NCBI GenBank assembly: GCA_020048335.1
Contig: JAIFMS010000087.1
Span: 1 to 33,383 of the forward strand
Direction of reading: 5' to 3'
Length of the DNA stretch: 33,383 nt
From: Methylococcaceae bacterium
GTDB taxonomy: Bacteria > Pseudomonadota > Gammaproteobacteria > Methylococcales > Methylomonadaceae
Position 1 is the stretch's first letter. Every line of letters begins with the position of its first letter. Below are positions 13,381 through 30,315 of the stretch, one piece after another. The notes under the pieces are model-generated. The model saw nothing but the letters and a program-made list of their open reading frames with translations, searched no databases and was not told the origin of the DNA. A program made the position numbers and the translations under genes.

Positions 13381-15126
13381 TTATTCTTCAAACTGCACAC
13401 TGTATAACCGTGAGTACGCGCCATTTTGAGCCAACAAGGTTTGATGCGTTCCACGTTCTACAATTTGCCCTTTTTCAATCACTAAAATTAAATCCGCCTC
13501 TTCAATGGTTGATAAGCGATGCGCAATAATAATTGAAGTGCGTCCTACAACAACTTCCTTTAAAGCTTTTTGAATTTGCCGTTCCGATTCAGTATCTAAG
13601 GCTGAGGTTGCCTCATCTAAAATTAACAGCGGTGCATCTTTTAATAAAGCCCGCGCAATGGCAAGACGCTGTTTTTGTCCACCTGACAGTTTCACCCCAT
13701 TTTCACCGATTTCAGTGGCTAAACCTTGCGGTAATGCTTCAATAAAGCCTATGGCGTGGGCTTTCTCAGCGGCTTGATGAATCGCCTCCAGTGGAGCATT
13801 GGCTAATCCACCATAGGCAATATTATTGGCAACGCTGTCATTAAACAACGTCACTTGTTGCGTCACTAAACCAATTTGAGCGCGTAAATTGCTGAGTTGA
13901 TAGTCTGAAATTTCTACCCCATCCAATAAAATCCGCCCTTCGCTGTGTTCATAAAAGCGCAAAATTAAATTCGTCACGGTGCTTTTGCCGCCGCCTGATG
14001 CGCCCACTAAGGCAACGGTTTGCCCGGCTTTTGCAGTGAAGCTGACATTTTTTAAGGCATAGTCTTCGCTGTTGGGATAAGCAAACGACACATTATCAAA
14101 TTCCAAAACCCCTGTGGCGCGGCTAATTTGATAATTGCCACTGTCAACCTCATCCATTTCATCTAAAATTTCAAATAAACTTTGCGCGGCGGTAATGCCT
14201 TTCTGCACATTGCTATTGGCATCGCTTAATTGCCGAATTGGTTTAGGCAATAAAAAAGCAGCCGTTAAATAGCCCACAAACCCGCCCGGACTTACTTTGT
14301 CCATAAAAAATAAAGTTAAATACATCAAACCTGCCAGTGCGATACCAATTAATAATTGCAATAATGGATTATGAATCGCGGTGGTTGTAGCAAGTTTTAA
14401 ATTTTGCTGGCTATTATTGAAACTACTGGTAAAAAAACGGCTTTTTTCATAATCCTTTCCACCATAACTGCGCACTACTCGATGTCCTGTGACCAACTCA
14501 GAGGTGATATGCGACATATCCCCGACAGAATTTTGAATTAACCGGCTGAGTTTTCGCAAACGTTTACTCACATAACTGACCATCACGGCAATCACAGGAG
14601 CAATGGCTAAAAAAACCAATGACAACCGCCAATCGCTGTAAAATAGATAAATTAATAGCCCCAACGCGGTTAAGCCTTCGCGCACAAACGTGCGAATGGC
14701 ATCGGTGGTGGCTTCAGTGACTTCGCGTACGTTGTAAGTAATGACCGACATCATTTGTCCGCTATTGTGACTGTCAAAGTAAGCGGTGGGCAATTGCGCA
14801 TATTTATTAAACACATCACAGCGTAAAGTATGGACAACGCCTGTGGAGACTTTGGCTAAGAAAAATCCCCCTAAAAAAGTACCAACCCCACGAGTAAAAA
14901 TCAGTCCTATAAAAAACAACGGCAGTAAAATCATTTTTTCACGATTTTGTGCTTGTAAAATATCAATAATATTTTTAATCAGCGTGGCAAATAGCGGCTC
15001 GGTTGCCGCATACAATAAATAACCGACGGTGCTGATTGCAAAAGACCCCCAAAAAGGGGTGACATAATGAAAAAGTCGTTTATAGGTTGCAAAAGGCGTG
15101 TTTTTTTCAGGTATTGATTCTGCCAT
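13381..15126 (-). CDS. msbA: Lipid A export ABC transporter MsbA
   Basis: A 581-aa half-transporter that flips lipid A-core across the inner membrane as a homodimer. Six membrane helices occupy about residues 20-310, and the nucleotide-binding domain follows: Walker A GASGGGKST, Q-loop at VTQQVTLF, signature LSGGQKQRLAIARAL, Walker B LLILDEATSALD and the switch histidine in IIAHRLSTI. Length and order match MsbA. ABC multidrug exporters share this plan, but the sequence and the LPS genes in the window favour MsbA. The ATG at 15126 lacks a strong ribosome site. No lpxK or kdsB follows it, unlike E. coli; the next gene on the same strand is pilU, which has its own promoter. Confidence 0.9.
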   Translation of the reverse strand: MAESIPEKNTPFATYKRLFHYVTPFWGSFAISTVGYLLYAATEPLFATLIKNIIDILQAQNREKMILLPLFFIGLIFTRGVGTFLGGFFLAKVSTGVVHTLRCDVFNKYAQLPTAYFDSHNSGQMMSVITYNVREVTEATTDAIRTFVREGLTALGLLIYLFYSDWRLSLVFLAIAPVIAVMVSYVSKRLRKLSRLIQNSVGDMSHITSELVTGHRVVRSYGGKDYEKSRFFTSSFNNSQQNLKLATTTAIHNPLLQLLIGIALAGLMYLTLFFMDKVSPGGFVGYLTAAFLLPKPIRQLSDANSNVQKGITAAQSLFEILDEMDEVDSGNYQISRATGVLEFDNVSFAYPNSEDYALKNVSFTAKAGQTVALVGASGGGKSTVTNLILRFYEHSEGRILLDGVEISDYQLSNLRAQIGLVTQQVTLFNDSVANNIAYGGLANAPLEAIHQAAEKAHAIGFIEALPQGLATEIGENGVKLSGGQKQRLAIARALLKDAPLLILDEATSALDTESERQIQKALKEVVVGRTSIIIAHRLSTIEEADLILVIEKGQIVERGTHQTLLAQNGAYSRLYSVQFEE

Positions 15127-15969: not shown

Positions 15970-16878
15970 ATGATGAAAAAATTGAATAAAACTTCGTTAG
16001 CTACGTTTATTGGAGCAGCAGTTGTTTCTAGTTTTGCAGGAACCGTGCATGCAGAAAGCAATCCTTTTGCCATGAATGAAATGGCAAGTGGTTATATGCA
16101 GGTTGCAGCCGCTGATGCAAAAACAGCCACACCTGTCGCGCCTGCGGCTAAAACAGCACCCTCAACGGCAGTTAAACCTGCGGGCAGTTGTGCAGAAGGT
16201 AAATGCGGCGCGGGAATGATGAATAATGCAGCAGCCCCTGCTGACAAAGCCGCAGAAGCTAAATGCGGCGAGAAAAAATGCGGCGCGATGATGGAAAATA
16301 GCAAAATGAAAGCAGGCATGGAAGCAATGTGCGGCGCAATGATGAAAGGTAAAGAAGGCTCTTGCGGCGATATGATGAAAAGCATGGAAGCTTCATGCGG
16401 CGGGATGATGAAAGGCAAAGAAGGCGCGTGTGGCGATATGATGAAACATGGCGCAATGCCCGCTGCCCCTGCGGCAAGTGCGACACCTGTAAAAGCGGCT
16501 GAAGGAAAATGCGGCGAGAAAAAATGTGGTGCAATGATGGAAAATGGCAAAATGAAGCCAGGAATGGAAGCCTCTTGTGGCGCGATGATGAAAGGCAAAG
16601 AAGGCTCATGTGGTGAAGTTGTTAAACCTACCGCACCTATTACTAAAGCCGCGCCCGCTAAACCAGTAGCGGTTGCGCCTGTTGCCAAACCTGTGGCGGC
16701 TGTTCCTGTTGCCAAACCTGCGGCTCCAGCTCCAGCCGCTAAAGTAGATACCACCAATAAAGTTGTAGAAGGTCAATGTGCAGCAGTAAAAGAAGTGAGC
16801 CACACAGCCACCAAGTATAACGATGATAAACACAGTGAAGCGCGGTGGGGCAACCGCAAAAAAGTTGTTAATCCTTAA
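15970..16878 (+). CDS. Secreted multi-Cys MNIO RiPP precursor, HvfA/bufferin-like
   Basis: A 302-aa protein with a clear signal peptide (MMKKLNK, hydrophobic core, cleavage after VHA at residue 28). A conserved-looking NPFAMNEMASGYMQ segment follows, then a low-complexity Cys/Met/Lys/Gly region. There are thirteen Cys, at 74, 79, 99, 104, 121, 132, 143, 154, 181, 186, 203, 214 and 270; eleven are followed by Gly. EGKCG, the motif modified by DUF692 enzymes in HvfA and bufferins, appears at 77-81 and 178-182, with EAKCG at 96. CG is usually followed by MM, a potential thiol/thioether copper site. The C-terminus is a Pro/Ala/Val/Lys linker (about 220-258) plus an EGQC and a basic tail. HvfA-type precursors are usually near 100 aa, so this one is much longer. 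Start has TAGGAAA upstream. Confidence 0.85.
   Translation: MMKKLNKTSLATFIGAAVVSSFAGTVHAESNPFAMNEMASGYMQVAAADAKTATPVAPAAKTAPSTAVKPAGSCAEGKCGAGMMNNAAAPADKAAEAKCGEKKCGAMMENSKMKAGMEAMCGAMMKGKEGSCGDMMKSMEASCGGMMKGKEGACGDMMKHGAMPAAPAASATPVKAAEGKCGEKKCGAMMENGKMKPGMEASCGAMMKGKEGSCGEVVKPTAPITKAAPAKPVAVAPVAKPVAAVPVAKPAAPAPAAKVDTTNKVVEGQCAAVKEVSHTATKYNDDKHSEARWGNRKKVVNP
16255..16617 (+). repeat. Internal duplicated core in the precursor gene
   Basis: Residues 96-136 and 178-216 are near-identical copies (82 residues apart) running from E-x-KCGEKKCGAMMEN to KGKEGSCG. Within and after the first copy the cysteines fall every 11 residues (121, 132, 143, 154), on a unit of the form E-x-x-C-G-x-M-M-K. Codons differ between copies (tgc/tgt, ggc/ggt), so the duplication is not recent. 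Confidence 0.85.
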
Positions 16879-16888
16879 TTGATTCAAG

Positions 16889-16919
16889 CCTACTCGGTTT
16901 TTTAAAATCGAGTAGGTTT
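16889..16919 (+). terminator. Probable terminator after the RiPP precursor gene
   Basis: CCTACTCG and CGAGTAGG form an 8-bp stem across an AT-rich 12-base loop that contains TTTTTT/AAAA, followed by TTT. It lies about ten bases past the stop. Only a weak T-tract follows, so it may attenuate rather than fully stop transcription. The 16920-17105 remainder shows no gene. Confidence 0.55.
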
Positions 16920-17105
16920 CATCGTTTGATAAGGCGTTATGAATACATTTTCAGGTCTTTGAGACTTGAAGGGGTTATTCCCGAAAAATTTTCTTATAAC
17001 TTAAAACAATACTTGGCTGCTCACCCAAAATTTAAAATGGTTGTGTTTTTGCTGGCTTCCTTATAGCAAATGTTGAACGATTAAAGACAATGGAGTTGAT
17101 AAATC

Positions 17106-18002
17106 ATGCAAATTTTAATGACAGGTGGCACAGGTTTGATAGGACGCTCGCTCTGTGCTGCTTTACTTAACGCAGGTCACGATTTAACCGTTTTAAGCCG
17201 AAACCCTGAATCAGTACAAGCAAAATGTGGAATAGAAGCCAAAGCCATCCAATCATTAAACGAATGGACTCCCGATAGAGTGTTTGATGCCGTTATCAAT
17301 TTGGCGGGTGAACCTATTATTGATGCACCTTGGACAGAACAACGCAAAAAACGGTTGTGGGATAGTCGAGTCAGTTTGACAGAAGAACTCATCAACCGCA
17401 TTGAAAATAGCAACTATAAACCCAAAGTATTATTAAGTTGTTCTGCAACTGGTTTTTATGGGAATTGTGGAAATACTCCCATAAACGAGTCAGCAACTCC
17501 TGCCTCAGATTTTGGCGCAAAACTTTGTGTGGCTTGGGAAAACGCAGCATTGAAAGCAGTGGATTGGGGTATTCGGGTTTGTGTGTTGCGCACAGGCTTG
17601 GTGCTTCATCCTTCAGGTGGGTTATTAGGCAAAATGCTTTTGCCTTTTAAGTTGGGACTTGGCGCACGGCTTGGCAATGGAAAGCAATGGATGAGTTGGA
17701 TTCATATTGAAGATTACGTTGCTATCGTACTCGATTTGTTAGAATGTCCTGATGCAGTAGGTTCGTATAATATGACAGCTCCGCAACCCACAACCAATCA
17801 AGAATTTACCACACTCCTTGCCAAAGTATTACATCGCCCTGCTTTATTTAGCGTTCCTGCATGGTTAATGACACTCATATTAGGCAAGAGAGCTTATTTA
17901 TTATTAGGAGGACAACGCGCTTTACCCACTAAAGTAGAAAAATTAGGGTATCATTTTATTTATTCTGATCTTGAAGAGGCTCTTAAAGCATCAATTGGAT
18001 AA
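17106..18002 (+). CDS. TIGR01777-family SDR epimerase-like oxidoreductase (YfcH type)
   Basis: A 298-aa extended SDR protein. The N-terminal nucleotide-binding motif is MTGGTGLIGRSL; VINLAGEPI follows (the family has NLAGxxI), then SCSATGFYG, where most members have SATGYYG, and a downstream LRTGLVLHPSGGLL. The C-terminal extension (about residues 235-298) is the DUF1731-like tail with QRALPTKVEKLGYHF. The family is widespread and its substrate unknown. It lies between the MNIO precursor and the MNIO maturase, all on plus. Whether it belongs to that pathway or is a bystander is open. Confidence 0.88.
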   Translation: MQILMTGGTGLIGRSLCAALLNAGHDLTVLSRNPESVQAKCGIEAKAIQSLNEWTPDRVFDAVINLAGEPIIDAPWTEQRKKRLWDSRVSLTEELINRIENSNYKPKVLLSCSATGFYGNCGNTPINESATPASDFGAKLCVAWENAALKAVDWGIRVCVLRTGLVLHPSGGLLGKMLLPFKLGLGARLGNGKQWMSWIHIEDYVAIVLDLLECPDAVGSYNMTAPQPTTNQEFTTLLAKVLHRPALFSVPAWLMTLILGKRAYLLLGGQRALPTKVEKLGYHFIYSDLEEALKASIG

Positions 18003-18114
18003 ATTTCAATGCTGTGTAAATAACCGAATATTTTGCTGAATGAGCGGTTTTTCCTAACCTAAATCCTTGGCGCGTTGAACAGATCATGGATTTAACTTTC
18101 TTTCCGAGTTTCTA

Positions 18115-18966
18115 ATGCAAACCACACAAAACTTAATACACGGCGCAGGCTTAGGATTGCGGCGGGCTTTTTTAACGGAAATTATCGACTCACCTGCTGC
18201 CAATGTCGCCTTTTATGAAGTCGCGCCTGAAAATTGGATGACCCTCGGCGGCAAGCTGGGCAAACAATTTCGGGCGATGACAGAACGATACCCGTTTGTT
18301 GCACACGGTTTGTCTTTGTCGATTGGCAGTTCTGACCCTCTCGATGAAACGTTTGTACACGCTTTAAAAAAATTCATGGCAACGCATCAAATCAAGTTTT
18401 ACAGCGAGCATTTAAGCTATTGCAGTCACCAAGGGCATTTGTACGATTTAATGCCGATTCCGTTTACCAGTGAAGCGGTTAGTCATGTGGCAAAACGCAT
18501 TCAGCGGGTGCAAACTATTTTGGAACAAAAAATTGCCATTGAAAATGTTTCCTATTATGCAACGCCTGGTCAGGAAATGAGCGAAATTGATTTTTTTAAC
18601 GCGGTGGTTGCAGAAGCAGATTGCGATGTATTGCTTGATATTAATAATATTTATGTCAACAGCGTTAATCATGGTTACGATGCAGAAAATTTTTTACGCG
18701 CCATCCCTGCCCAGCGCGTTTCTTATGCCCATATTGCAGGGCATTATGTAGAAGCACCTGATTTTTTGGTTGATACGCACGGCGCGGATGTGATAGACCC
18801 TGTTTGGAAATTATTAGCCAAAGCGTATGAACTTTATGGCGTATTTCCTACGCTATTAGAACGTGATTTTAATATTCCTGCCTTAGCCCAGCTAATGAAG
18901 GAAGTCGATACGATTACCGCGATACAAACGGCATGGAGTCAGGAACATGAAAAACAGTCCGCTTAA
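18115..18966 (+). CDS. MNIO-family RiPP maturase (DUF692, HvfB/BufB-like)
   Basis: A 283-aa TIM-barrel multinuclear non-heme iron-dependent oxidative enzyme. Candidate iron ligands are visible at H64 (AHGLSLSIG), E98/H99 (SEHLSY), E143 (IENVS), D175 (LDINNIYVN), H206/H210 (AHIAGH), D220/H222 (DTHG) and E249 (LERDFN). Relatives MbnB, TglH, HvfB and BufB oxidise precursor cysteines to oxazolone/thioamide or 5-thiooxazole products. GLGLRR and FYEVAPENWM near the N-terminus are typical. The stop overlaps the next ORF by 20 bases. The likely substrate is the Cys-rich protein at 15970. NCBI-style names would be HvfB family or DUF692 domain-containing protein. Confidence 0.93.
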   Translation: MQTTQNLIHGAGLGLRRAFLTEIIDSPAANVAFYEVAPENWMTLGGKLGKQFRAMTERYPFVAHGLSLSIGSSDPLDETFVHALKKFMATHQIKFYSEHLSYCSHQGHLYDLMPIPFTSEAVSHVAKRIQRVQTILEQKIAIENVSYYATPGQEMSEIDFFNAVVAEADCDVLLDINNIYVNSVNHGYDAENFLRAIPAQRVSYAHIAGHYVEAPDFLVDTHGADVIDPVWKLLAKAYELYGVFPTLLERDFNIPALAQLMKEVDTITAIQTAWSQEHEKQSA

Positions 18967-19714
18967 AGCAAAGGTGGATTTCAAAGCCACACAACAAGCG
19001 TTCACCAATTACATCCGAAACCCGCGTTGTCACCCTGTCCCAGACGATGTGCCGCTCCAACGGATGGCAATGTATCGGGAGCTGTTTTTTAATAATGTGG
19101 AAAGTTTTTTAAGCAATGGCTTTCCTGTGCTACACAAAATTTTAACCAGCACGCAATGGACAGATTTAGTGCAAGATTTTTTTGCCCATCATCAAAGTCA
19201 AACCCCGTATTTTTCAGAAATTGCCGAAGAGTTTTTAGCTTATTTGCAGAATGAACGGCAAACTGAAAACGATTATCCGTTTTTATTGGAACTGGCGCAT
19301 TATGAATGGGTTGAAATGGCGTTGTCGATTTCGCAGGAACAATTGCCACCCTTTACTGAATATATTGAAAATTTTTCCCAACAAACCATAAGCTTATCGC
19401 CACTGGCTTGGAATTTAGCCTATTCCTATCCTGTACAAAAAATTTGTCCTGCATTTTTACCCACTCAGCCCAGTGCAGAACCGACTTATTTATTGGTGTA
19501 TCGTGATTGGGAAGATGAAGTGCGCTTTATTGAAACCACCGTCATTACCTTTCGGTTGTTACAAATTATTGATGAGCAACCTGCTATTACAGTAGAAAAA
19601 GCGGTACAGCAAGTTGCGGTGGAAGCGGGGCAACAAGACTCGCCATCCTTCATAGAGGCAGGTTTACAATCGCTGCAAGAATTGTCCAAAAAAAGCATTA
19701 TCTCATTGCTGTAA
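18947..19714 (+). CDS. MNIO partner protein (DUF2063, HvfC/BufC-like)
   Basis: A 255-aa protein whose N-terminal half matches the DUF2063 putative DNA-binding-like fold: FKATQQAFTNYIRNPRCHPVPDDVP, RMAMYRELFFNNVESFLSNGFPVL, then YFSEIAEEFLAYL and YPFLLELAHYEWVEMAL. It is always found with DUF692 enzymes and is thought to present the precursor leader to the MNIO, with the C-terminal domain (about 150-255) adding a second lobe. Starts inside the maturase gene; a GGAGTCAGGA ribosome site lies just upstream, so the two are coupled. Confident by family pattern and context together. Confidence 0.92.
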   Translation: MKNSPLKAKVDFKATQQAFTNYIRNPRCHPVPDDVPLQRMAMYRELFFNNVESFLSNGFPVLHKILTSTQWTDLVQDFFAHHQSQTPYFSEIAEEFLAYLQNERQTENDYPFLLELAHYEWVEMALSISQEQLPPFTEYIENFSQQTISLSPLAWNLAYSYPVQKICPAFLPTQPSAEPTYLLVYRDWEDEVRFIETTVITFRLLQIIDEQPAITVEKAVQQVAVEAGQQDSPSFIEAGLQSLQELSKKSIISLL

Positions 19715-23459: not shown

Positions 23460-23505
23460 ATTGCCAGAGTTTTTCATAATTAGCGATGGACTCGGCGGAT
23501 TGTGT

Positions 23506-24858
23506 ATGAATTTAACAGATTTAACAGAGCTAGAACGCGCACTATATTTTATTCCAGCCACCATTGAGCGTGAAAAATGGATTGAAATAGGAGATGCTCT
23601 TAAAACCGCCGGAATATCCTTTGAGGTTTTTGACCATTGGAGTTCAACAGGGGATGGCTATAATGCTAAAACCTGTAGACAGCAATGGAAAAGTTTTAAT
23701 GGTTCGCATAAAGCAGGGACGTTAATTTATTACGCCATGCAATACGGTTATGGCACTAATAAATCAAATGAAATTGCCTTGGAAAGAGCAAGGGCAGAAT
23801 CTCAAAAAAAAGCACTACAACAAGCCAGACTTGTTCAAGAAGCCGCTTTAAGGTGCTTTAATATTTGGCAAGTAGCCACCGATGCGCATAACAACCATCC
23901 TTATTTGGTCAAAAAACAAGTCCCTGCCATTGGTTTGAGAATTGACTCACGCGGACACCTGTTAGTTCCAATTCTTAATGCAAACAATCAACTACAAAGT
24001 TTGCAAATCATCAGTCCTCAAGGAGAAAAACTCTTTACTAAAAATAGTGTAACCGCTGGTGGATTTTATCAGTTGGGAACTGTTTTAGCGGATTCAACCC
24101 TGATCAATATTACTGAAGGCTATGCAACGGCAGCAACGATTGCATATCTGACGCAGCAGCCAGTTTTTATAGCTTTCAGTGCGTCAAATTTAACGGCGGT
24201 TGCGCAATTAGTTCGTAAACGTCATCCTAAAAACCCGATTATCATTTGTGCCGATAATGATCGTTTGAATAAAGATGGAACGATTCGCCCAACCGATAAA
24301 AACACAGGGATTATCAACGCCCAAAAAGCAGCACAGGCAATTAACGCAACCGTTTGTATCCCGTATTGCAGCGGTTCAGATTTTAATGATCTTTTTTGTG
24401 AATTAGGGGCAGATGAATGCCTTAAACAACTCAAACGTAAAGTTTTGCAGGTTCCGACTTCACAAATCGTCCGCAGTGCTATTGCATTATTGCTACAAAA
24501 CCCCCATTTAGCAAAAAGTGTGATAGATAAGATTCCCAAATGGGAAGGACTAGAATTTCAGGGCTTAGATATATTTAAAAGTTTGTTACATACTATTCTT
24601 AATTATCCAGCAATAAATACAAACGATTTGATTAAGATGTATCGGGGGTTGGCAGAGGAAAAGGTCATTCAAACTTTAGCAGACCAGAAGTTTCCTTTTT
24701 CAAAGGAAGGAGTACAAGCTGAGTTTTTAGATGCTGTTGATAATTTGATAGCCAAAGCGCGGCAGGCAAAAATAATCGAATTATTGGAAAAAGAGAAAAA
24801 CCAAAGTTTGAATGCAACTGAAAAATACCAACTAAATAAAATGTTAATTGACAAATAG
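23506..24858 (+). CDS. Hybrid primase at the dnaG locus: PriCT-2/TOPRIM region fused to DnaG C-terminal domain
   Basis: A 450-aa protein in the dnaG slot. Residues about 10-77 match PriCT-2 (EREKWIEIGDAL, FDHWSSTGDGYNAKTCRQQW). Residues about 110-195 resemble the domain before TOPRIM in phage or plasmid primases (HPYLVKKQV, then LLVPILNANNQLQSLQII). TOPRIM follows with TEGYATAATIAYL (about 203-215), IICADND (about 246-252) and SDFND (about 291-295). From about residue 317 it reads as the DnaB-binding domain of DnaG: SQIVRSAIALLLQNPHLA, then FQGLDIFKSLLHTIL and IKMYRGL. No CHC2 zinc finger and no DnaG-type core are seen. The frame is open back to a TTG at 23461, but that overlaps the terminator, so the ATG is preferred. 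Confidence 0.8.
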   Translation: MNLTDLTELERALYFIPATIEREKWIEIGDALKTAGISFEVFDHWSSTGDGYNAKTCRQQWKSFNGSHKAGTLIYYAMQYGYGTNKSNEIALERARAESQKKALQQARLVQEAALRCFNIWQVATDAHNNHPYLVKKQVPAIGLRIDSRGHLLVPILNANNQLQSLQIISPQGEKLFTKNSVTAGGFYQLGTVLADSTLINITEGYATAATIAYLTQQPVFIAFSASNLTAVAQLVRKRHPKNPIIICADNDRLNKDGTIRPTDKNTGIINAQKAAQAINATVCIPYCSGSDFNDLFCELGADECLKQLKRKVLQVPTSQIVRSAIALLLQNPHLAKSVIDKIPKWEGLEFQGLDIFKSLLHTILNYPAINTNDLIKMYRGLAEEKVIQTLADQKFPFSKEGVQAEFLDAVDNLIAKARQAKIIELLEKEKNQSLNATEKYQLNKMLIDK

Positions 24859-29454: not shown

Positions 29455-30315
29455 ATGGAAAATAACATGAAATTTGTTGATCCAAAAACCGACATTGCGT
29501 TTAAAAAAATATTTTCTAATCAAGCGCATAAAGAAATTTTAATTGAGTTTTTAAATGAGTTATTGGAATTGGAATATCCGATTGCCGATGTGACAATTAG
29601 CAATTCTTATCAACCGCCGCATTTACTCGGTTTAAAAGAAAGCCATTTGGATATTAAAGCCACCGATACCTCAGGACGCGAGTTTTTGGTGGAAATGCAG
29701 GTCGAAAAAGAAGCTTGGTTTCGTCAGCGAGCCATGTATTACAGCAGTAAATCGTATAGTCAACAATTGGGCATTGGTGAAAAATACCATTTACTCAAGC
29801 CTGTGATTTTTTTAGGGATTTTGGATTTTAAAACCTTTAGTCACGAATCACCATTTTCGCGGCATTTGCTGTTAAATAGCCAAACGCAACAGCAGGATTT
29901 AAAAGATTTGGAATTTAATTTTATTGAATTGCCGAAGTTCATTAAATCCGAAACGGAATTGGAATCAACGGCAGATAAATGGATTTATTTTATTAAATAC
30001 GCGGCGAATTTAGACTGTATTCCAGCGAATGCCGATACGCCCGCTTTGCAATTGGCTTATCAAATTGCCACGCAATATCAGTGGACAAAAGAGGAGCTTG
30101 AGGTTTATGAGGCGCAGGAAATTAAGTTGGAAATTAATCGAAATGTGGTGGAAACCGCGTGGCTGGATGGCATGAATGCAGGAAAAACAGTAGGGAAAGA
30201 GGAGGGGAAAATGGATGTGGCTCGCAATTTATTACCGATAATGGATGATGCTGCCATTGCGCAAATAACCGGTTTGGATGTAAACGCTATCAGGCAACTT
30301 CGCCTTACTGATTAA
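29455..30315 (+). CDS. Rpn-family recombination-promoting nuclease / PD-(D/E)XK putative transposase
   Basis: A 286-aa protein of the Rpn/YhgA-like, TIGR01784-type family. The N-terminal signature is FVDPKTDIAFKKIFSNQAHKEILIEFLNELL. The nuclease core is LDIKATDTSGREFLVEMQVEKEAWFRQRAMYY (about residues 62-95), giving D and E-x-Q in place of the usual D/ExK. The C-terminus ends with a short helical GKEEGKMDVARNLL repeat-like tail and AQITGLDVNAIRQL, a common family ending. Members are multicopy and spread horizontally. Start could be 29455 or the second ATG at 29467. It ends two bases before the TPR gene. Confidence 0.87.
   Translation: MENNMKFVDPKTDIAFKKIFSNQAHKEILIEFLNELLELEYPIADVTISNSYQPPHLLGLKESHLDIKATDTSGREFLVEMQVEKEAWFRQRAMYYSSKSYSQQLGIGEKYHLLKPVIFLGILDFKTFSHESPFSRHLLLNSQTQQQDLKDLEFNFIELPKFIKSETELESTADKWIYFIKYAANLDCIPANADTPALQLAYQIATQYQWTKEELEVYEAQEIKLEINRNVVETAWLDGMNAGKTVGKEEGKMDVARNLLPIMDDAAIAQITGLDVNAIRQLRLTD

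Follow-up and report, generated by a model that had tools for sequence, protein, structure and literature searches.

The 33,383-nucleotide contig JAIFMS010000087.1 of the Methylococcaceae bacterium assembly GCA_020048335.1 (hereafter the window, read along its forward strand from position 1 to 33,383) carries, between positions 15,970 and 19,714, a locus that we interpret as a subtype of the captophorins, copper-binding ribosomally synthesized and post-translationally modified peptides (RiPPs) bearing 5-thiooxazoles. We put the probability at about three in four that this subtype is that of one methanotroph family, probably Methylomonadaceae, and that its product holds Cu(I) in the periplasm. 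Its distinguishing feature is a 30-residue cysteine/methionine module, the CGxMM module, which lies twice, with an additional half copy, in a long, presumably secreted precursor encoded upstream of a maturase pair. Three things appear to be new: the module, its confinement, in the samples searched, to a single methanotroph family, and the presence of one maturase pair alongside both a long and a short precursor. In the open-licence literature we found no description of the module or of such a locus in methanotrophs (supplementary precursor tables may list it), and a scan of 55 relatives of the precursor against NCBIfam and Pfam found no model for the module itself.

The module has the consensus CGxMMxxxKMKxGxExxCGxMMKGKEGxCG. 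The window precursor contains a first copy, CGAMMENSKMKAGMEAMCGAMMKGKEGSCG (residues 104-133; 16279..16368, + strand), which agrees at all 20 fixed positions, a second, CGAMMENGKMKPGMEASCGAMMKGKEGSCG (residues 186-215; 16525..16614, + strand), and a half-module, CGGMMKGKEGACGDMM (residues 143-158; 16396..16443, + strand). We compared 33 precursors of the family, 32 of them chosen for preceding a gene for a multinuclear non-haem iron-dependent oxidative enzyme (MNIO) and one, from genome G022, found via the HvfA repeat family. At least 19 of the 20 fixed positions are kept in 31 of these 33, spanning 26 genera; the exceptions are G012 (7) and G023 (9). The 20 positions were picked after the alignment had been viewed; the highest score among 6,600 shuffled sequences was 11, and scores of 6-10 were obtained for 13 precursors of the order's other families. 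The sequence-only reading, an earlier examination of this DNA from its letters alone, had noted CGxMM sites, which are indeed present, but had not recognized a near-invariant, family-restricted module of 30 residues.

The same restriction was seen at the DNA level. Of the 301 order genomes sampled, 186 contain an exact-codon pattern for the module core, CGxMMKG[KQ][ED]G, and every one of them belongs to the host family (186/227, against 0/74 elsewhere in the order, a split counted by hand). The first of these fractions is a lower bound, as G004, G005, G019 and G029 have the module with a single difference yet score 0. The pattern also turns up in G015 and G036, two genomes in which no precursor was seen next to an MNIO. 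At class level it was absent from all 368 other genomes and present only in the window's own genome, in a sample of 369 that includes this genome, G012 (of the host family) and two genomes of the order. The reversed pattern gave no match in any sampled group of the order and class samples.

The genes of the locus are of a known kind. The precursor gene (15970..16878, + strand) encodes 302 amino acids (aa) with 13 Cys and 28 Met, and its product passes the cut-off of the KCGExKCG repeat domain NF050137 (41.8 bits; cut-off 19.5). Downstream on the same strand lie genes for an HvfB-type MNIO maturase of the DUF692 family (18115..18966; NF003818, 437.9 bits, cut-off 360; a relative of PDB 3bww) and for an HvfC/PME1-type partner of the DUF2063 family (18947..19714; NF050145, 299.8 bits, cut-off 142; a relative of PDB 3dee), the only DUF692 and DUF2063 proteins in the host assembly. 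The sequence-only reading had called this an HvfA-type, MNIO-associated secreted precursor with maturases, and the three cut-offs passed bear it out. It was also right in placing DUF692 and DUF2063 genes downstream, but it omitted the intervening gene for a short-chain dehydrogenase/reductase (SDR) oxidoreductase of the TIGR01777/yfcH type (17106..18002, + strand; 341.5 bits, cut-off 207.35).

Eleven of the 13 cysteines are followed by Gly and two by Ala. EGKCG words stand at Cys79 and Cys181 and EAKCG at Cys99, and the successive cysteine spacings are 5, 20, 5, 17, 11, 11, 11, 27, 5, 17, 11 and 56. The reading frame, cysteine and CG counts and EGKCG-type words given by the sequence-only reading were all found again. 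So was its spacing of 5-17-11-11-11 then 5-17-11, ascribed to an internal duplication, which at the DNA level covers 130 nt at 82% identity with copies 246 nt apart and is accompanied by 33-nt spaced repeats. By eye, and in the alignment too, residues 1-28 (15970..16053, + strand) read as the Sec signal peptide noted by the sequence-only reading, ending VHA/ES; all 13 cysteines would lie in the mature part that follows. After this putative signal peptide, two alignments revealed a conserved motif, NPFxMxExxxGYMQxA (residues 31-46; 16060..16107, + strand), that may be the leader of the precursor. Behind the modules come a linker rich in Ala, Pro, Val and Lys (16624..16755, + strand) and a C-terminal tail with the lone Cys270 (VVEGQCAAVKE...WGNRKKVVNP; 16756..16878, + strand), which by alignment is common to two other examined species of the host genus. 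As 12 aligned relatives begin about one residue later than the window frame, translation may in fact start at the second ATG, giving 301 aa. An open reading frame on the minus strand (16092-16757) overlaps the precursor gene and appears to be a mere mirror of its repeats.

Model searches with the precursor gave little beyond the HvfA families. Pfam yielded nothing above threshold (only a sub-threshold TrbM match at E up to 1), and a profile search of PDB sequences at E up to 1 matched no solved structure. Each HvfA model was matched by 34 of the 55 relatives at E up to 0.01, a limit distinct from the NCBIfam cut-offs; besides these there were three stray matches to two other NCBIfam models and, in one relative, a weak Pfam match. 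The search against HvfA and bufferin families that the sequence-only reading had proposed ended in a match to the HvfA repeat domain, but not to the HvfA equivalog or to DUF2282.

The module also stands apart in its geometry. Its spacing is constant (C-x16-C-x10-C), whereas EGKCG repeats vary in number and spacing among species. AlphaFold modelled the whole precursor with a mean predicted local distance difference test (pLDDT) score of 53.6 and a predicted template modelling (pTM) score of 0.24, yet its local confidence peaks on the two modules, where blocks of ten residues reach 65-84. A 42-residue stretch containing the module alone was folded as two short helices around a small hairpin (pLDDT 63.6, pTM 0.29). 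This fixed geometry, unlike that of the loose EGKCG repeats, suggests that the module may be an ordered site, with AlphaFold contributing a hint only.

What chemistry the cysteines would undergo can be judged from published maturases. The HvfBC product is now assigned as a 5-thiooxazole and not as an oxazolone/thioamide (PMC13097082, PMC13419390). Of the products offered by the sequence-only reading, thiooxazole therefore stands, and oxazolone/thioamide is outdated. FonBC, HvfBC and NgoBC install 5-thiooxazoles on EGKCG-type precursors with a loss of 4 Da each, and the products bind copper (PMC13097082, PMC13419390). The same heterocycle is tentatively assigned for MmrBC on an EGKCG-type precursor, again with copper bound (PMC12538549). 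Full-length HvfA is favoured over a form that lacks the signal peptide. Before the Cys, FonBC can cope with Ala, Arg or Thr; after it (position five) only Gly or Ala is accepted, with exceptions in other motifs, and Pro is not tolerated (PMC13097082, PMC13419390). FonBC also processes the double variant EAACGEGACG (PMC13097082).

In the window precursor, 12 of the 13 cysteine five-mers read E-x-x-C-G/A and none contains Pro. The residue before the Cys is Lys in five cases (79, 99, 104, 181 and 186), Ser in five, and Met, Ala and Gln in one each. The CGxMM cysteines lie within the Glu-first words EGSCG, EASCG, EGACG and EAMCG, and look like substrate words in which Lys has been replaced. The E-x-x-C-G/A context of 12 cysteines lends some support to the dozen modified thiols that the sequence-only reading thought possible. 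Modification of the five Lys-Cys sites is, in our judgement, likely. For the CGxMM cysteines, our estimate moved from a little under even to a little over it because their E-x-x-C-G context emerged. Function could instead be split, with HvfBC modifying the Lys-Cys sites only and the modules forming an unmodified Cys/Met Cu(I) site, in effect a fusion of a captophorin with a metal-binding repeat; we regard this as a serious possibility, if one at clearly less than even odds. A module fixed in its spacing and at 20 near-fixed positions is more constrained than a tolerant enzyme should require, and the helices and hairpin of the model coincide with the best local confidence of the protein. Yet all module cysteines have Glu at the third position ahead of them and Gly next, like the EGKCG word, EGACG (here at Cys154) is part of the processed FonBC variant, and the confidence of the model for the module alone is low.

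The captophorin reading can be set out as a sequence of steps. The precursor would be made with its signal peptide and leader-like NPFxMxExxxGYMQxA motif, HvfC would bind its N-terminal region, and HvfB would oxidize the cysteines of E-x-x-C-G words to 5-thiooxazoles (4 Da lost at each) prior to Sec export. In the periplasm or envelope, the product would then hold Cu(I) by means of both its thiooxazole thiolates and the paired Met residues of the 30-residue modules. We infer the leader role, the modification, the metal, the location, the role of the product and any link to methane oxidation. Among these, copper is very likely the main metal, and buffering or storage rather than uptake is a reasonably probable role. 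The single HvfBC pair probably also matures a second, short precursor.

This short orphan precursor lies on contig C139 (6.8 kb) of the host assembly (2.73 Mb in 204 contigs, 90.5% complete). It has 128 aa and five Cys, no CGxMM, and scores 37 bits against NF050137; among the open reading frames listed for that contig there is no DUF692. The leader-like expression matches four of five short precursors compared; that of G022 fails and reads, by eye, NPFSMNELDSGYMQLS. A cytochrome P460 gene lies beside the C139 precursor on the opposite strand (L061 357-743 and 905-1483). The sequence-only reading had considered that a canonical short precursor next to another DUF692 copy might be the true substrate; a short precursor does exist, but the sole DUF692 of this 90.5% complete assembly is at the locus described here, so the objection fails in the form given. 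An improbable reading nonetheless makes the C139 precursor the true substrate of the single MNIO and leaves the long one as a metal-binding protein, rich in Cys and Met, that undergoes no modification. The short precursor carries a paired EAKCGEGKCG and a close form of the leader-like motif, its HvfA equivalog score is somewhat higher (28 bits, though below the cut-off of 95), and the SDR gene parts the long precursor from the MNIO in the window. Against this, in the two sister species it is the long precursor that immediately precedes the sole MNIO, the short one being on a separate contig, and the order of long precursor and MNIO is kept in 31 of 36 other family genomes.

These 36 genomes formed our sample for conservation of the locus. 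An MNIO orthologue, 69-83% identical to that of the window, is present in 34 of them, and a Cys-rich precursor lies upstream of it on the same strand in 32 (31 with CGxMM, G012 without); in these same 32 there is no room for an SDR-sized gene between the two. The gap is at most 185 bp, apart from 599 bp in G013 and a negative value in G019, which probably results from an over-extended start. In G015, no precursor was called near the MNIO. An SDR between precursor and MNIO was not found in any relative examined; that of the window may be a chance insertion or may take part. An nth-like gene, of the HhH-GPD family in the window, was seen in the examined stretch of 28 of the 34 genomes with an MNIO.

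A wider view came from named loci, the best 80 of 185, which were found with module peptides and so lend no support to conservation of the module. An MNIO lies within 1 kb downstream in 69 of the 80, and one sequence ends too soon; a single SDR-like match (27% identity, L202) is upstream and on the other strand. Their titles name Methylobacter, Methylovulum, Methyloprofundus, Methylomonas, Crenothrix, Methyloglobulus and Methylocucumis, as well as methane-oxidizing symbionts of mussels and a snail and Methylococcales symbionts of sponges; further titles are broad (Methylococcaceae, Gammaproteobacteria, uncultured proteobacterium). Carriers that by name appear to be cultured are Methylobacter tundripaludum SV96, Methylobacter luteus IMV-B-3098, Methylovulum miyakonense HT12 and Methylovulum psychrotolerans Sph1. 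Other MNIO loci were also met: four (L096, L098, L109 and L122) have a different precursor type, with EG[GA]CSGKM-like repeats, near an MNIO of 53-58% identity to that of the window and HvfC, and L098, the one tested, passed the HvfB cut-off. In six more, from relatives (L085, L090, L093, L097, L106 and L112), a small CYGVA...KNDCK-like precursor is followed by an MNIO of its own (33-38% identity), and that of L085, the one tested, scored 390.1 against the bufferin maturase cut-off of 310 and so passed.

Type I methanotrophs have a high copper demand because of particulate methane monooxygenase (pMMO), and little is known of how they keep this copper and pass it on. A captophorin locus that occurs in nearly every sampled genome of the family, and that in the host has the only maturase pair, is a concrete candidate for such copper handling. 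The available text of PMC3621798 offered no lead on type I methanotrophs. In the host, PF02461, the family of subunit A of pMMO and ammonia monooxygenase (AMO), is matched at G000:C64:6681-7356 in two overlapping pieces in different frames, reflecting either a sequencing error or a broken copy; 34 of the 36 other family genomes also match. From this match and from its kin, the host is very probably an aerobic methanotroph, and its family (f1) is probably, we assume, the Methylomonadaceae of GTDB. We suggest, tentatively and at rather low odds, that the module is a new ordered Cu(I) unit within a captophorin, binding through thiooxazole and/or thiolate plus Met pairs, and that the product is a periplasmic reservoir feeding pMMO in Methylomonadaceae-type methanotrophs, in place of the methanobactin or Csp proteins used elsewhere. 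An uptake role seems improbable; here a secreted chalkophore-like carrier would scavenge copper on behalf of pMMO, the task that methanobactin has in some methanotrophs. The presence of PF02461 in the host and nearly all family genomes would suit it, whereas no TonB receptor or MATE family was found among the Pfam matches of the window reading frames scanned, and the MbnB equivalog TIGR04159 was missed (56.6 bits; cut-off 325).

Several observations weigh against the captophorin reading. The precursor scored 19.6 bits against the HvfA equivalog NF050188, whose cut-off is 95, and so is not HvfA itself; and as the SDR gene interrupts the window cluster, where direct adjacency of precursor and MNIO is usual in the captophorin/HvfA family, co-transcription is not assured. 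In G022, precursor and MNIO are on different contigs, G008 and G036 have no MNIO despite a PF02461 match, and ten of the 80 named loci lack one despite more than 1 kb of sequence, among them the mussel-symbiont loci L170 and L211. The bare CGxMM word also occurs outside the family, where a G040 precursor (family f5) has it twice but lacks the module. Searches did not find the module in f4, the best sampled of the other methanotroph families, and G012 has only a short precursor that lacks it; because of these absences, it cannot be needed for methane oxidation as such. In the accessible portion of the published account, Met, Ser and Gln before the Cys are not among the FonBC variants named. Known captophorins from other sources commonly respond to excess copper, gold or oxidative stress (PMC13097082), and induction by excess copper would make the locus a copper defence and not a supply line. 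In Microbulbifer, the sections available report that mmr expression was not seen and that there is no definitive ecological role (PMC12538549).

These last points lead to plain detoxification, in which a captophorin induced by excess copper would be unlinked to methane oxidation and the module a lineage feature without a special role. This is somewhat unlikely in our view. The published induction pattern favours it, as does the failure to find the module in the order's other families, methanotrophs included. Drift, however, would not hold 20 of 30 positions over 26 genera while precursor length and repeat number vary.

Regulation and surroundings add a few observations. Between 15780 and 18200, two promoter-like and four terminator-like sites were predicted, against 4.1 and 2.9 in shuffles. 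Across 77 upstream regions, the commonest spaced word occurred in 24, whereas the maximum in five shuffles was 9; a minority of the regions therefore have something in common, whether a regulatory site or shared ancestry. In G022, a Sigma70_r2 sigma factor gene lies close to the MNIO, separated from it by a DoxX gene (L072 468-1040 and 1395-1892), and another lies near the short precursor of G010 (L077 2335-2916); these may be regulators. No DoxX gene was found at the window locus, and one lies elsewhere in the host genome. An ABC transporter gene (13381-15126) lies on the strand opposite the precursor. Further along, a primase-like reading frame beside rpoD (23461-24858) combines PriCT_2, Toprim_3 and a DnaB-binding domain without the DnaG zinc ribbon; PF01807 has no match in the 90.5% complete host assembly and matches in 10 of 14 control genomes. 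A PD-(D/E)XK family transposase gene occupies 29455-30315.

Among known systems, copper storage proteins (Csp) have many Cys for Cu(I), as the window precursor may, and are known from a methanotroph (PMC5171941), but Csp monomers are four-helix bundles and the precursor profile matched no PDB sequence at E up to 1. Methanobactin, an MNIO-modified copper RiPP of methanotrophs such as we propose here, differs in that the window has HvfC in place of MbnC as partner and a putative signal peptide on its precursor, and in the heterocycle of published assignments. It was rejected as an identity on the MbnB score given above, and no MbnC model was among the matches of the downstream gene. Bufferins (DUF2282 and 6/12-Cys types) have the signal peptide, thiooxazole and copper role that are proposed for the window product (PMC12452194), but their precursor families differ; this candidate was set aside with 280.4 bits against the BufB model NF050167 (cut-off 310) and no DUF2282 domain in the precursor. 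Already described, too, are the long, many-Cys secreted MNIO substrates of the Buf_EGKCG/oxazolin family, of 31-506 aa and up to 58 Cys (PMC12452194). The window precursor falls inside both ranges, which removes the novelty that the sequence-only reading had seen in a giant multi-core protein. The two types described there have 17-residue EGKCG repeats or EF-hand fusions, and the window module is neither, as far as the available text goes (PMC12452194).

Bulbicupramide (MmrA of Microbulbifer) has EGKCG cassettes and an MNIO with DUF2063 in common with the window system, and tentative thiooxazoles and Cu(I) binding like those proposed for it; its EGKCG units hold five to eight Cys, the parts available make no mention of a CGxMM module, and its host is, according to its authors, without obvious nutritional demand for much copper (PMC12538549). 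With HvfA/oxazolin of Haemophilus, fontiphorin and gonophorin, the locus shares a putative signal peptide, KCG repeats, an HvfB-type MNIO and an HvfC-type partner. From such EGKCG captophorins it differs in lacking DoxX at the locus and failing the NF050188 equivalog, and above all in a Met-rich precursor with the CGxMM module, only five of 13 Cys as Lys-Cys, and an Ala/Pro linker and tail. EGKCG captophorins are suspected of binding copper stochastically, unlike DUF2282 products (PMC13097082); the subtype described here predicts an ordered site inside an EGKCG-type precursor, and makes that question testable.

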